Source: an uncultured Rhodospirillales bacterium (lineage in GTDB: Bacteria; Pseudomonadota; Alphaproteobacteria; Azospirillales; Azospirillaceae). Taken from it: 33,548 nucleotides of DNA. The notes under the pieces are model-generated. The model searched no databases. It saw only the letters and a list, made by a program, of their open reading frames with translations, and was not told the origin of the DNA. The position numbers were made by a program, and so were the translations under genes. Every line of letters begins with the position of its first letter. Position 1 is the stretch's first letter. Positions 1 to 4,268 of this stretch are shown in pieces. The stretch is taken from contig CAIZDL010000111.1 of the NCBI GenBank assembly GCA_903931735.1, positions 1 to 33,548 of the forward strand, written 5' to 3'.

Positions 1-160
1 AACCGGCCGCCCCCCCGGTGCCGCCCAGCAGTTTTGCGGTCAGCGCATCGCGCACCAATTCATGCTCGATGCCCGGAAAGATGGCCGCCGTTGCCGGTGT
101 CATCCCGTTTGCGACCAGGGTTTGGCGAACCACCTCATGGCTAACGCCGGCAGGAACCAT
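1..160 (-). CDS. 5' end of an unrecognised gene (partial, runs off the left edge)
   Basis: An open minus-strand frame begins with ATG at 160 and leaves the window at base 1, giving the first 53 residues (MVPAGVSHEVVRQTLVANGM...). A G-rich Shine-Dalgarno-like stretch (GGGGGGAT) lies about 7-8 nt upstream of the ATG, which supports the start. The visible part is helical-looking and soluble, has no signal peptide or membrane segment, and ends in a Gly/Ala-rich run. I do not recognise the family. It is divergent from the plus-strand gene at 397, so the 236 bp between them should hold both promoters. Confidence 0.55.
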   Translation of the reverse strand, partial: MVPAGVSHEVVRQTLVANGMTPATAAIFPGIEHELVRDALTAKLLGGTGGAAG

Positions 161-396
161 CGCGCTTATCCCCCCATAAAATCTGGTGCCGACAACAACG
201 GCACCGCACAATGGTAGCACCCCCTTGCCACAGCGGGCAACCCATTCGGCGGGGAGGCGCGCACCATTGAAGCCGTGGGGGCTAAAAATGGCGTTCCGTG
301 CCAAAACAAGGTGATAATGGCGTAGGTATCAGCGACCGAGTTATGCCATGATGCCAACGCCCTTTGCGCCAATGATCGTCTTATCCGCGTGGCTTA
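161..396. other. Divergent intergenic region
   Basis: This non-coding stretch separates the divergent genes starting at 160 (minus) and 397 (plus). I see no convincing sigma-70 pair or operator. A short minus-strand ORF here starts with a non-ATG codon and looks like chance. Confidence 0.5.
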
Positions 397-1539
397 ATGC
401 CCTCTGACCAGTATCCGTTTGCGCCGCAGTCCCATTTGCCTTTGGATGTCCTCCTCGCCGTTGACGTCGATGTCGGCTGGCAGGTGGGCTTGACTGTGCT
501 GCCGGGAAAATCGCCCCCAGACGATGCCTTTCCGCTCACCGACCCCGACAACGTTACCCACGTATTTGACGCCGAATTCACCGAGTTGATGGCCGATCCT
601 GAAGGATTGCGGACACTGAAGGAAGCATCCATCAACGCGATCATGATGCGACACGTCGACATTGGCACAGAGTTCTATATTAAAAATTTCGGTTCCAGCT
701 TTTACCGAATCGCTCTTTGCTATGATTGCCCAGGTAAACAGGAATGCAGCAAGTGCAATAAGACCGGCTATATCACCGAGGTTTTTCAGCCCTATTTAAT
801 TGGCCTTTGCTACGTAAAAGACGCAACCGAGCAACGGCAACCAGATCTGCCCGACCCGGCCGTGGTGGGGGCACCAGCCAACCCGCCGCCCCGGTCGCAC
901 CCGGCGAAGCCCAAACCAAAACCCAAACCAAAACGCTGGTCATGGAGCATCCCGCTCGCGGCCCTCGCCACGATGGTGATGGCGGTGAGCATCGGCCTGC
1001 GGTTCATGTACGAATCCGAGGCGCCGAAGCGACCACCCGAGATCGTCCGCCCGCTGGAGCCGTCGCCACCACCCGCAACCGTTCCGCCAGTGCCCGCCCC
1101 TCCTCCGGCCAGCGCGCCAATCGTGACGCCCCCCGAACCAGTGCTGGCGCCGGCCCCGACTCCCGCACCTGCACCACCCGAGGTTGTGCCGCCGCCACCC
1201 CGCCCGAGCAAGCCGCCGCCCCCTCCCCCACCTGCACCCGTGCTGCCGGCTCCGGCGCCAGTTCATTCGGCGCCAGTTCCAACTCCGAGTCCACCACCGC
1301 CGCCTGCCGCCAGCATACCGGCGGGAAAAAATAGCCCGGTGGCAAGGTTACAGACGGCACTGGCCCAGTTGGGTTTGTATCACGGCCCAATCACCGGCGT
1401 TCTTGATGGACCGACGCATCAGGCCCTTTCGGAGCTGAACGCGCTCGTGCCGGCACCAATCCGGACAAAATTCGGCCTGCGCAGCGCGGCAATGGCTGAG
1501 GCCGCCGCCCGGCACGAATTTGAACTCAAATCGCGGTAA
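397..1539 (+). CDS. Membrane protein with cytoplasmic four-Cys knuckle, proline-rich stalk and peptidoglycan-binding domain
   Basis: A 380-residue protein with four visible parts. Residues 1-160 are a soluble domain with C108-x2-C111-x5-C117-x2-C120, a pattern resembling a zinc knuckle of the DnaJ cysteine-rich type (followed by NKTGY). Residues 161-180 are Pro/Lys-rich and basic (KPKPKPKPKR), and 181-205 form one transmembrane helix, so by the positive-inside rule the N-terminus is cytoplasmic. Residues 207-325 are an extended Pro/Ala-rich stalk. Residues 328-365 match the PG_binding_1 fold (ARLQTALAQLGLYHGPITG...). I infer a protein that links the cytoplasm to the cell wall; the layout recalls TonB-like or SPOR/PG-anchored proteins, but the N-terminal domain is not recognised. 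The ATG at 397 has no clear Shine-Dalgarno. The following small genes lie on the same strand. Confidence 0.75.
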   Translation: MPSDQYPFAPQSHLPLDVLLAVDVDVGWQVGLTVLPGKSPPDDAFPLTDPDNVTHVFDAEFTELMADPEGLRTLKEASINAIMMRHVDIGTEFYIKNFGSSFYRIALCYDCPGKQECSKCNKTGYITEVFQPYLIGLCYVKDATEQRQPDLPDPAVVGAPANPPPRSHPAKPKPKPKPKRWSWSIPLAALATMVMAVSIGLRFMYESEAPKRPPEIVRPLEPSPPPATVPPVPAPPPASAPIVTPPEPVLAPAPTPAPAPPEVVPPPPRPSKPPPPPPPAPVLPAPAPVHSAPVPTPSPPPPPAASIPAGKNSPVARLQTALAQLGLYHGPITGVLDGPTHQALSELNALVPAPIRTKFGLRSAAMAEAAARHEFELKSR

Positions 1540-1830
1540 GCGCGACATTTAGGCACCAAGTCCACCGATTTGACAGATTCTCCCCGGCAACAACCCCGGG
1601 CGCACCCTGGAAACGGCCCCGGACCTTTAGGGCAACACATTGATAGTGCAAGGATAAATACCAACTAGCCAAATTTGCGGCAAAAATCAACGCCCTTGCC
1701 AAAACCAACTTCAGGCGTTCACTCGCGATCAAAATGGGGTTATGCTCACGGTGTGGCAGGTGCATCGGCGCGATTGCCGATCCCCGCTGTCATCAATGAG
1801 GTCAGTACGAAGCTGCCGCACAAGGTCGTC
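1540..1830. other. Intergenic stretch without a supported gene
   Basis: The 291 bp hold no supported coding region. A perfect -35 hexamer TTGACA occurs near 1572, but no acceptable -10 element follows at 16-18 bp. An upstream extension of the next small gene (from a TTG at 1675) is possible but lacks protein-like composition. Confidence 0.4.
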
Positions 1831-2031
1831 ATGACAACGCCCCAGAATGATCAGGTGGATGTAACGCTGGCAACGGCTAAACGCCAGCCACCATCAACAG
1901 GCCACCATGTGCCCGCCCTGATACTGCTCTGGATACTCATCATCGTCGCTGGCTACTTTATCTGGCCAAGCAAAGGTTATTTTATCAGCCCCCCGCCTCT
2001 GGACGCACAAACGTCGAAGGCACCACCATGA
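1831..2031 (+). CDS. Small single-pass membrane protein, unknown function
   Basis: A 66-residue frame starts at ATG 1831, with AAGG about 6 nt upstream. Residues 1-25 are polar. Residues 27-47 (rich in Leu, Ile, Val and Trp) form one transmembrane helix, and a short Pro-rich tail follows (about 49-66). The longer open frame back to 1675 begins with TTG and adds a low-complexity basic stretch, so the ATG start is preferred. The stop overlaps the start of a 15-codon ORF in an ATGA at 2028, which suggests translational coupling. I recognise no family; it may be a membrane anchor for the neighbouring STAS-like protein, which is inference only. Confidence 0.5.
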   Translation: MTTPQNDQVDVTLATAKRQPPSTGHHVPALILLWILIIVAGYFIWPSKGYFISPPPLDAQTSKAPP

Positions 2032-2075
2032 GCGTGAGCCCGCAGACGATGGCGCAAAGGGAGCTGGGGATATGA
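2028..2075 (+). CDS. 15-codon mini-ORF coupled on both sides
   Basis: The ORF (MSVSPQTMAQRELGI) starts in an ATGA overlap with the stop of the 66-residue gene and ends in a second ATGA overlap with the start of the STAS-like gene at 2072. Purine-rich GGGAG/GGGG inside it acts as the Shine-Dalgarno of the STAS-like gene. It may be a real peptide, or simply a device that carries ribosomes from one cistron to the next. Double overlap by chance is unlikely but possible. Confidence 0.3.
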   Translation: MSVSPQTMAQRELGI

Positions 2076-2497
2076 AGGTGAACGAGCTTTGGGTTGCGTT
2101 CGCGGATAGTAAACTAACAAGTTCCGTGTCTCTTCATCATCTTGATGACAGCTCGATGATCAAGGTGGATATTGGTGGGATAATCGACGAAAATTCGGCA
2201 TTTGTCACAAATGTTATCCTCGCCGCGATGGATAGCGGCCACCACGACTATTGCCTGCTCGATGTCAAGAACCTGATCTTTGTGGATGGCATCTCGGTGA
2301 ACGAGTTTGCTATCGAATGCTTGGTCAAGCTCACCGGCTTTGCGATGAACCGCGACATGAAAGCATTTTTGGTGGTTGATAACAGTTATGTGCGCGAGGT
2401 TATGGCCAATATCCTCCGCCGGCATCGTGGCTTTTCCAAGCTCGCGATCCAATCGAGCGCCGACTTTATGGATAGCGACCTCGCCCACAAGGTTTAA
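2072..2497 (+). CDS. STAS-like (anti-sigma factor antagonist type) protein
   Basis: A 141-residue soluble protein whose pattern of strands and helices fits a STAS domain. It has a strand IKVDIGGII near residue 30, a long helix, a buried strand YCLLDVKNLIFVDGIS (about 65-80) where the regulatory Ser/Thr loop normally sits, a helix, the strand KAFLVVD, and a C-terminal helix with a hydrophobic strand. The loop reads VDGIS rather than the classic IDSSG, so a phosphorylatable serine is possible (Ser about position 77) but not certain. STAS proteins act in partner-switching with serine kinases, or as modules in membrane and lipid-asymmetry complexes; no kinase is in view. A strong terminator follows at 2509. 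Confidence 0.55.
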   Translation: MKVNELWVAFADSKLTSSVSLHHLDDSSMIKVDIGGIIDENSAFVTNVILAAMDSGHHDYCLLDVKNLIFVDGISVNEFAIECLVKLTGFAMNRDMKAFLVVDNSYVREVMANILRRHRGFSKLAIQSSADFMDSDLAHKV

Positions 2498-2508
2498 ACC
2501 GCCCCTAA

Positions 2509-2559
2509 AGCATGATGCGATCAAGCGAAACCGCATCATGCTCTAACTATTTTATTTTT
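2509..2559 (+). terminator. Perfect 11-bp hairpin and T-rich tail; alphaproteobacterial dispersed palindrome
   Basis: AGCATGATGCG (2509-2519) pairs perfectly with CGCATCATGCT (2532-2542), and the T-rich stretch CTAACTATTTTATTTTT follows. It works as a Rho-independent terminator for the STAS-like gene. The same arms and the CTAACT-T-rich tail are familiar from dispersed intergenic palindromes in alphaproteobacterial genomes (recalled, not searched). Confidence 0.85.
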
Positions 2560-2562
2560 AGA

Positions 2563-2604
2563 GCGGGTCAACGCTACGGGGTGCCCTCCCCTTTCGCGAC
2601 CCGC
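2563..2604. repeat. Second inverted repeat between convergent genes
   Basis: GCGGGTC (2563-2569) is inverted as GACCCGC (2598-2604), just before the stop codon of the Sel1-repeat gene. There is no T-run on the minus strand, so a terminator for that gene is not assured. It could be the second half of the dispersed element at 2509. Confidence 0.4.
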
Positions 2605-2605
2605 C

Positions 2606-3331
2606 CTAAGGGTTTAGCATCACCCGCTGTTGCGCGGCAGGGAACCCTTGCTCGGCCGCCCGAGTGTAATACTCAAGCGCCAATGCCAAATCGGCCTCTC
2701 GTCCCTCGCCATTTTCATAAATAACACCAAGGTTGAAAAGCGCCCGGGCATAATGTTGATCGGCGGCCCGGCTATACCAGTAAAATGCTTTTCCTTTGTC
2801 TTGGGCCACGCCCTCGCCATCATCATACATCAGAGCCAAATTAAACTGCGCCGCAGCATGATCTTGCTCGGCCGCCTTTTGATACCAAACCGCCGCCTGT
2901 AATTTGCCCTCGGGGACACCCTGACCGCTGGCGTACATCACCCCCAACGCATATTGGCTGGCAGCATCGCCCTGCCGTGCGGCCAGTCGAAACCACTGAA
3001 AAGCTTCCTCCGGGCAGGCCAACACGCCATCGCCATTGACCAACCGATAGCCCAGCTCCCGTTGTGCACCGGCGCTGCCGCCCTTGGCGCGCATCCGCAA
3101 TGTGAGGGCCGCAATCCGGCCCGCGCCGCCCTGCAACCCCAGTGCGCCCAGCGCCGCATCCAGCTTTTGAGACACGGCCCGCACCTGTTGAGCAGCGACC
3201 CGGCCCGACTCCCGCGCCGCCTCGGCCAGAGCCGGCAACGCATCTTCAACCGGAATACGCACCAGCTCCGCTGGCGGGGCCTCGCCTAAATCCTGGTCCT
3301 GGTCCATATCAAAATCCGGGTCGTCAATCAT
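2606..3331 (-). CDS. Sel1-like tetratricopeptide-repeat protein
   Basis: A 241-residue soluble protein with an acidic N-terminus (MIDDPDFDMDQDQD), a helical middle (about 30-80), and four tandem Sel1-like repeats of about 36 residues (about 85-235). Each repeat carries the A..LG.MY..G.GV......A..WY..AA..G pattern. Sel1 repeats are protein-interaction scaffolds. No signal peptide is visible, so a cytoplasmic site is likely. ATG 3331 is chosen because GAGG lies about 9 nt upstream; an in-frame ATG at 3379 would add 16 unconvincing residues. It begins 73 bp after atpG on the same strand with no terminator between them, so it may be read with the ATPase operon. A role in assembling that ATPase would be speculation. 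Confidence 0.85.
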   Translation of the reverse strand: MIDDPDFDMDQDQDLGEAPPAELVRIPVEDALPALAEAARESGRVAAQQVRAVSQKLDAALGALGLQGGAGRIAALTLRMRAKGGSAGAQRELGYRLVNGDGVLACPEEAFQWFRLAARQGDAASQYALGVMYASGQGVPEGKLQAAVWYQKAAEQDHAAAQFNLALMYDDGEGVAQDKGKAFYWYSRAADQHYARALFNLGVIYENGEGREADLALALEYYTRAAEQGFPAAQQRVMLNP

Positions 3332-3404
3332 GCCCCGCACCCTCGTCCAGCCGGCAACGTTGGGCGAGGGTAAATACATTGGCCGCCAACGGCAATACCG
3401 CCGT

Positions 3405-4268
3405 TCAGTTTCGACGCGCGGCGGTGGCGCCGATCACCACATCAAGCAACTCGGTCGTGATTTCCTCCTGCCGTTGCTGCCGAGCCTGCTGGGTCAAGGC
3501 TTCGAGCTTGGTCTCGATGTTGTCGTGGGCGGCCTCCATCGCCGTGAGCCGGGCGGCATTCTCGCTGGCAAAAGACTCCAGTGCGGCGTGCATCAGCCGG
3601 GTAAAGACAAACTCCTCAACCACCTTATCGAACAAATCGCCGGCATCGAGATAAACCATCGGCACCGCCGTCTCGGCTTGATGATAGGCGGCGGCATCGA
3701 AGGGCAGTACCGGTTCAACCTCCACCATCCACAAAGAGCCGTTGGTGTTCCGGCCATACACCAACGTAACGCGCTCGATGCCATCTTGGGCCAACCGCCG
3801 AAACAGTTCTTCGGAACACCGCAGCACCACCTCCAGCACCCCACCGATGTGGGTTGCCATTGGCTGCGCATAAGCGACCCGACACCCATGCTCCTCGGCC
3901 TTGACCTTGCCCCGCGAGCCAACCACCAACAGCCGATGGCCACTACTTTTGGCAAGGCTCCACGCCCGCTCCAGAATCCGCTCGTTGTAGGCGCCGGCAA
4001 AACCATGCTCGGAGGTGAACGCCACCACCGCCAACCGCCCCTCCCCCGCGCCGGCCCGCGCCCGCTTGGGGCCGCCACCGCCCCCGGTCAACGCCAAGCC
4101 GCGCGCGAGACCGAAATTTATCACCTCGGTATATTGACGAATGCCCGGGAGCGCGTTTTGCGCCTGCCCCAAGCGCATCGCCGCCAGCGCCCGCATGGCG
4201 CCCATAATGTCCTGCAAATCACCAAGATTGGCGATCCGGGCCTGTATTTCCGCCAGCCGCTCGACCAT
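3405..4268 (-). CDS. atpG: N-ATPase gamma subunit
   Basis: A 287-residue gamma-type central stalk. The N-terminal helix (ERLAEIQARIANLGDLQDIMGAMRALAA) and the C-terminal coiled-coil helix (AARLTAMEAAHDNIETKLEAL...) are the two halves of the rotating shaft. Between them lies a Rossmann-like globular part. The divergent sequence (GGGG-rich loop near 61-66) fits the N-ATPase gamma, not the housekeeping one. In the rotary motor it couples c-ring rotation to the catalytic sites. It is the last ATPase gene of the operon and starts 15 bp after atpA. Confidence 0.93.
   Translation of the reverse strand: MVERLAEIQARIANLGDLQDIMGAMRALAAMRLGQAQNALPGIRQYTEVINFGLARGLALTGGGGGPKRARAGAGEGRLAVVAFTSEHGFAGAYNERILERAWSLAKSSGHRLLVVGSRGKVKAEEHGCRVAYAQPMATHIGGVLEVVLRCSEELFRRLAQDGIERVTLVYGRNTNGSLWMVEVEPVLPFDAAAYHQAETAVPMVYLDAGDLFDKVVEEFVFTRLMHAALESFASENAARLTAMEAAHDNIETKLEALTQQARQQRQEEITTELLDVVIGATAARRN

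Follow-up and report, generated by a model that had tools for sequence, protein, structure and literature searches.

The window analysed here, 33,548 nucleotides of an uncultured Rhodospirillales bacterium (contig CAIZDL010000111.1 of assembly GCA_903931735.1), begins at a contig end and opens with a probable Mms6/MamD-like LG-repeat gene on the minus strand (2..160), of which the end leaves the N-terminal 53 residues. Divergent from it, on the plus strand, lies a gene with an ATG start encoding 380 residues (397..1539; hereafter, the target), followed on the same strand by genes for a small single-transmembrane (TM) protein of 66 residues (1831..2031) and a STAS-like protein of 141 residues (2072..2497). 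A gene for a Sel1-repeat protein (2606..3340, minus strand) converges on this group. Farther along, the minus strand between 3405 and 31085 carries ATP synthase genes beside lpxC and a long division and cell-wall block, as named by eye. We compare the window's own genome (G000) with the MAG VK3_bin-0780 (G002), from an uncultured Rhodospirillales bacterium of the same genus, which holds the sole known orthologue of the target (L010:4306-5445).

The target is a real gene, as its pN/pS of 0.44 against the orthologue, over the whole gene, lies beyond chance; and its product is a rare membrane-spanning protein, a single-pass envelope protein with a probable N-in, C-out topology. A putatively soluble cytoplasmic N-terminal domain (residues 1–141; 397..819, plus strand) that matches no family leads to the basic stretch KPKPKPKPKR (residues 171–180; 907..936, plus) and a TM segment at residues ~185–203 (949..1005, plus), which is the hydropathy maximum in both orthologues and, by hydropathy only, the one clear hydrophobic stretch in the target. 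Beyond the membrane follow a proline-rich stalk (residues ~205–305; 1009..1311, plus) and a PG_binding_1-like half-domain (residues 313–346; 1333..1434, plus). The 15 residues ahead of the TM segment contain six K/R and no D/E, and those after it three of each; on hydropathy and charge only, this bias makes the N-in, C-out orientation likely. The orthologue has three K/R and no D/E before its TM segment and carries RRPTRH in place of KPKPKPKPKR, the basic flank thus not being kept letter for letter. Its stalk is 32% proline, compared with 48 of 101 residues in the target. A reading made earlier from the sequence alone (the sequence-only reading) had proposed a transenvelope protein with a cytoplasmic CxxC-N5-CxxC motif, a KPKP linker, a single TM segment, a proline-rich stalk of about 115 residues and a PG_binding_1 domain. 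The motif is present at residues 108–120, the linker and single TM segment are where it placed them, and the overall layout is supported by sequence features shared with the orthologue; the stalk is indeed proline-rich, with a length nearer 100 residues.

Target and orthologue are 55% identical over their full length and 59% identical in the N-terminal domain, and have in common the four cysteines, the single TM segment, the proline-rich stalk and the C-terminal domain. Third codon positions account for 193 of the 393 changes between the two copies. By region, pN/pS is 0.41 in the N-terminal part, 0.38 around the TM segment, 0.56 in the stalk and 0.26 in the C-terminal domain, where purifying selection is strongest. 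The gene was found in 2 of 59 relatives (own genome counted), corresponding to 2 of 35 genomes of the family and 2 of 5 of the genus. A class-wide draw of 385 genomes, which left out G002, gave two matches, the source genome and a weak one in G186 that we set aside as chance (E = 0.0043 over 48 residues, with two stop codons inside); in a phylum-wide draw the source genome was the only match among 398. Searched against its own genome, the whole target matched itself alone. A scan of genome contigs recovered the same orthologue, identical in sequence, in VK3_bin-0780. A mobile-element origin was rejected, no relative being found in viral contigs or plasmids; two short peptide patterns served as queries in the contig scan and likewise in the viral scan, and could have missed distant relatives.

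Among Pfam families, PG_binding_1 and PG_binding_2 are the only ones matched by the target at E ≤ 1. PG_binding_1 (PF01471) scores 20.2 bits against the full-length protein and 23.5 bits against the C-terminal 81 residues alone (gathering cut-off 23), and PG_binding_2 scores 21.4 bits against the same 81 residues (cut-off 21.1). Both profiles match the orthologue as well, below their cut-offs, with PG_binding_1 at 18.4 bits over the full length and 21.9 bits in the C-terminal part; reversed-sequence controls gave no match to the peptidoglycan-binding profiles. The PG_binding_1 domain of the sequence-only reading is therefore present as a partial match, borderline at the cut-off and covering about half of the profile (positions 3–36 of 57) rather than a whole domain. 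An AlphaFold2 (AF2) model of the C-terminus (pLDDT 72) had no match in the PDB at E ≤ 0.001 and listed no peptidoglycan-binding chain; its best VIA-align hit, Las1 at Z 4.1, we count as uninformative and not as evidence against peptidoglycan binding. In a sequence profile search 6tci, a domain of a spore cortex-lytic enzyme, came up at E = 2.1. The C-terminal domain probably grips peptidoglycan.

The N-terminal domain carries a Cys4 knuckle, a putative zinc site, formed by Cys108, Cys111, Cys117 and Cys120 (718..756, plus strand) and present in both orthologues; a fifth cysteine of the region lies at position 138. A CxxC-N3–20-CxxC arrangement arose in 92 of 200,000 shuffles of residues 1–157. 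Across residues 108–120, the orthologue keeps all four cysteines and one of the nine other residues (p = 0.007 by a hypergeometric test applied post hoc to the two sequences), and so the cysteines are conserved in the only homologue found, as the sequence-only reading would expect. Where CxxC motifs come in pairs they often form structural zinc sites, and the Cys4 domain of the target probably binds zinc in a structural role. With phmmer, residues 94–127, which include the knuckle, gave a weak and non-significant match to the DnaJ-type zinc finger of BSD2 (E = 0.57). That finger repeats the unit CxxCxGxG, whereas the target has a single pair of CxxC motifs and its orthologue lacks the DnaJ-type glycines. 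The N-terminal domain does lie outside known families, as had been suspected: Pfam, NCBIfam, PADLOC and a PDB sequence profile search returned none, nor did Pfam for residues 1–142 alone at E ≤ 5, and no paralogue of the domain appeared at E < 1 among the 26 sequences examined. An AF2 model of residues 1–160, built from two sequences, was unusable (pLDDT 38).

The truncated reading frame at 2..160 shares 64% identity with the beginning of L010:3715-4110, the LG repeat itself falling outside the window. This G002 relative matches the NCBIfam profiles for MamD (6.4e-15), Mms6 (1.9e-14) and MamG (3.9e-9), all below their curated cut-offs (for MamD, 55 bits against 100), and the target is divergent from the Mms6/MamD-like gene in both genomes. 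Between the two genes, the stretch just 5′ of the target (340..396, no strand assigned) aligns alike in both genomes; elsewhere in the 26 sequences examined, its matches are all short. An upstream reading frame whose TAA overlaps the target ATG in both genomes was considered and rejected; since in the window it has no start codon except a GTG near its end, we prefer a possible regulatory stretch. Promoter and terminator scans performed no better than on shuffled sequence, and Rfam gave nothing at gathering scores in window positions 1–4000.

Downstream, the small TM gene, which probably starts at ATG 1831 and not at TTG 1675, has a 60% identical copy at L010:7502-7705 (pN/pS 0.37), and the STAS-like gene has a 75% identical copy at L010:7773-8198 (pN/pS 0.23) and paralogues in both genomes. 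The two travel with the target in both genomes, a point that the sequence-only reading had named as a check; in G002, genes for a pentapeptide-repeat protein and a further STAS-like protein intervene. The small membrane protein stands as first described; the label STAS-like rests on a sequence pattern, as 2072..2497 matches no Pfam family at E ≤ 1 and none of six relatives matches a STAS family. The Sel1 gene is 64% identical to the gene in the corresponding position of L010, and that gene matches Pfam Sel1 at 1.9e-39.

Core magnetosome genes occur in the source genome: over the NCBIfam cut-offs are MamB (403 bits, with a second protein at 365; cut-off 350), MamK (462; 400), MamP (312; 300) and MamQ (256; 250). 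On contig C153 the order is mamP-A-Q-R-B-S-T, and the MamA, MamR, MamS, MamT and MamO matches of this genome are below their cut-offs. G002 has neither MamB nor MamK over the cut-off; the assembly may lack them, or the organism may have lost them or never had them. MamD-like matches are found in 2 of the 5 genus genomes (six places in G000 and seven in G002). Across the order, 2 of 82 genomes have such matches, and these are the two with the target, a gene searched for in 35 genomes of the family; in none of the 82 does MamD exceed its curated cut-off. The association of the target with magnetosome genes is one of two related genomes of a single genus. A single other genome of the class draw, G375, has MamB over the cut-off, and also MamK; if included among the 385 genomes, it gave no target match. 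A genome named VK3_bin-780, evidently the MAG of G002, has been placed in a monophyletic group with magnetotactic, carbonate-forming Azospirillaceae from Lake Pavin (PMC11773610), and the genus is assigned to Azospirillaceae on this basis. The sequence-only reading is supported in part: its layout holds, while its suggestion of a metal- or redox-sensitive module that would sense or pull on the wall is conjectural. It missed the genomic context, with core magnetosome genes in the genome and an LG-repeat gene next door, and in our view this context favours anchoring over a free-standing sensor.

The G002 contig bearing the target (C190, 18.5 kb) carries, in this order, a response-regulator-like and a STAS-type reading frame (both by eye), an LG-repeat gene, an MmsF-like gene and a gene for a 444-residue TM protein. 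Next come a ParA-like gene, genes for proline-rich and hemerythrin-like proteins, ZorA and an EH-signature protein (ZorC), and then genes for an SRPBCC protein, a 442-residue TM protein, a small TM reading frame and an LG-repeat protein, with the target beyond. ZorA and ZorC lie about 3–7 kb upstream of the target. The MmsF-like gene was named by eye, its G000 relative having no NCBIfam match, and the ParA-like assignment rests on weak matches. In the source genome, the end of contig C24 carries hemerythrin-like, ZorC and SRPBCC genes in the order seen in G002, and C24 may precede the window. Strong assignments were obtained for ZorA (G000), ZorB (G002) and ZorC (both genomes) among proteins scanned with NCBIfam and PADLOC, a ZorA homologue reaching 252 bits with NF033914 (cut-off 190). 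EH_Signature matches occur in 2 of the 5 genus genomes, the same two that have the target. The 442/464-residue TM family has one member in G000; among 385 class genomes one other, G115, gave a weak match (E = 3.7e-4), which was left unused.

Genes for ZorA, ZorB and ZorC of Zorya type I-like character lie at L028:6-3145, L033:6649-9998, L035:8128-8859, L048:7026-8426, L049:983-3630, L050:5853-10102 and L051:3745-8549; they come from both genomes, and LG-repeat, MmsF-like, ParA-like and hemerythrin-like genes are interspersed among some of them. At L050:2436-5764 (G002), a VWA, PP2C-phosphatase and kinase trio, named by eye, adjoins ZorA, ZorB and ZorC homologues. Across eight loci with or beside Zor genes, one reading frame exceeds 800 residues, a kinase-like protein (by eye) of 1,772 residues in L035. 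The target itself matched no PADLOC family at E ≤ 0.01 and so no Zorya component. In the open-licence literature, we found no paper joining magnetosomes with Zorya, nor one joining peptidoglycan binding with magnetotactic bacteria.

We propose, at somewhat below an even chance, that the target serves as a tether or scaffold, specific to this lineage and anchored in the wall, with a docking domain whose Cys4 knuckle probably binds zinc, and that it is encoded in a magnetosome-accessory island. The island would belong to a genus of Azospirillaceae that are presumptively magnetotactic. The PG_binding_1-like domain, on its proline spacer of ~100 residues, would hold peptidoglycan while the TM segment crosses the inner membrane, and the knuckle, with its probable structural zinc, would stiffen the cytoplasmic domain. 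That domain may dock a partner, most likely one encoded at the same locus (the LG-repeat, small TM or STAS-like protein), such that a magnetosome-related assembly would be fixed to a site on the cell envelope. The tether or scaffold is suggested by the same layout in the orthologue, purifying selection, retention of the four cysteines and the peptidoglycan-binding matches; the island, by the divergent Mms6/MamD-like gene, the core mam genes of G000 and the co-occurrence in two genomes. Designs that bind the wall or serve as a membrane landmark can position things, as indicated by PodJ and McaA (PMC8980812, PMC9512821). The proposal is weakened by the lack of MamB and MamK over the cut-off in G002 and the confinement to two genomes of one genus, by a peptidoglycan-binding match to about half a profile and a C-terminal model that listed no peptidoglycan-binding structure, and by LG-repeat matches below the MamD cut-off and a G375 genome apparently lacking the target.

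Other functions can be drawn from the same genes. The Cys4 domain could respond to metal, oxygen or redox state, and together with a STAS-like partner it could relay the state of the wall to gene expression or chemotaxis-like signalling. A STAS-like gene, of the kind that would supply an anti-sigma-antagonist-type partner, is downstream in both genomes, response-regulator-like and STAS-like reading frames (by eye) lie near another LG-repeat gene of G002 (L033:146-863), and the wider island encodes a hemerythrin-domain protein and relatives. We nevertheless consider such a relay unlikely: CxxC pairs are often structural, nothing between the LG-repeat and Sel1 genes was recognised as a kinase, sigma factor or anti-sigma gene, and no STAS profile matches the downstream protein. 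The target could also be a general envelope or cell-division factor that happens to lie where the island meets the block of Sel1, ATP synthase and division/cell-wall genes. This would fit the Sel1 gene at the same place in G002 and the ATP synthase and cell-wall clusters next in the window, but seems rather improbable, as such a factor would be expected in close relatives, yet the target is present in 2 of 5 genus and 2 of 35 family genomes.

The Zor genes raise a further reading, in which the target would be a TonB- or GltG-like force transducer for an ion-driven ZorA/ZorB motor of the MotAB class, moved against the wall so as to position cargo. Homologues of ZorA, ZorB and ZorC are present, in G002 with ZorA and ZorC on the target's own contig; but the target matches neither TonB/TolA nor PADLOC families, ZorB has its own OmpA/MotB-type domain and so needs no second wall anchor, and the ZorA and ZorB genes of G000 were seen on contigs other than that of the target, leaving this quite doubtful in our view. 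Anchoring of intracellular amorphous calcium-carbonate inclusions instead of magnetosomes appears very unlikely. LG-repeat proteins are known from magnetosomes, and we found no report of carbonate for the organism of G002, even though that genome keeps LG-repeat proteins and the target with MamB and MamK not over the cut-off, and VK3_bin-780 falls within the carbonate-forming magnetotactic group (PMC11773610).

In its possible working mode, the wall-anchored tether might resemble several known systems to which no homology was found. PodJ, a polar scaffold of Caulobacter, combines a cytoplasmic part, a TM anchor and a periplasmic peptidoglycan-binding domain (PMC8980812). The target likewise has a cytoplasmic part, a TM segment and an outer peptidoglycan-binding-like domain; in place of the target's Cys4 domain and proline stalk, PodJ has six coiled coils together with a disordered region and a TPR domain in the periplasm, and Pfam finds no TPR or Sel1 match in the target at E ≤ 1. 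GltG of the Myxococcus gliding machinery has a cytoplasmic FHA module, a TM segment and a proline-rich TonB-like motif and is bound to a motor protein (PMC3169522); the target shares the order of cytoplasmic module, TM segment and proline-rich part, but Pfam finds neither FHA nor TonB in it. The NCBIfam GltJ profile (NF033761) scores 13.7 bits (E = 0.024) against the target, far below its equivalog cut-off of 450, and the match is limited to residues 147–309, that is, the linker, TM segment and proline stalk; GltJ has a cytoplasmic zinc finger. McaA of Magnetospirillum is a membrane protein proposed as a landmark that places magnetosomes (PMC9512821). It is oriented the other way round, its N-terminal VWA domain being periplasmic and its C-terminus cytoplasmic, and the target has no VWA match at E ≤ 1.

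To our knowledge, little is understood at the molecular level of how the torque on a magnetosome chain is transferred to the cell body. If it docks a partner in the cytoplasm and grips the wall, the target, whose gene lies beside a magnetosome-type gene, would be a direct candidate for such a link. Were it only a scaffold, it would add a family-less N-terminal domain and a new layout to the wall-anchored single-pass proteins. Given the nearby Zorya-type genes, one may also ask whether motors of the MotAB class work for organelles. As a far-reaching conjecture that we regard as most improbable, the target could mechanically link a mineral organelle (a magnetosome chain or carbonate inclusion) to peptidoglycan, with a ZorA/ZorB motor recruited from Zorya-type defence, such that the organelle would be actively positioned and magnetic torque passed to the wall.

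LG-repeat genes have further neighbours elsewhere in the two genomes. Long CDF transporters lie by them in both (L031:3527-4909 and L036:10221-11630), scoring ~150–160 bits with MamB/MamM (cut-off 350), and FeoA- and FeoB-like genes, named by eye, are near LG-repeat and MmsF-like genes in both (L029:2046-4428 and L034:1394-3892). A contig bearing an LG-repeat gene also carries, at L027:1-489, a reading frame composed of many PLDVLLPDEPE repeat units.
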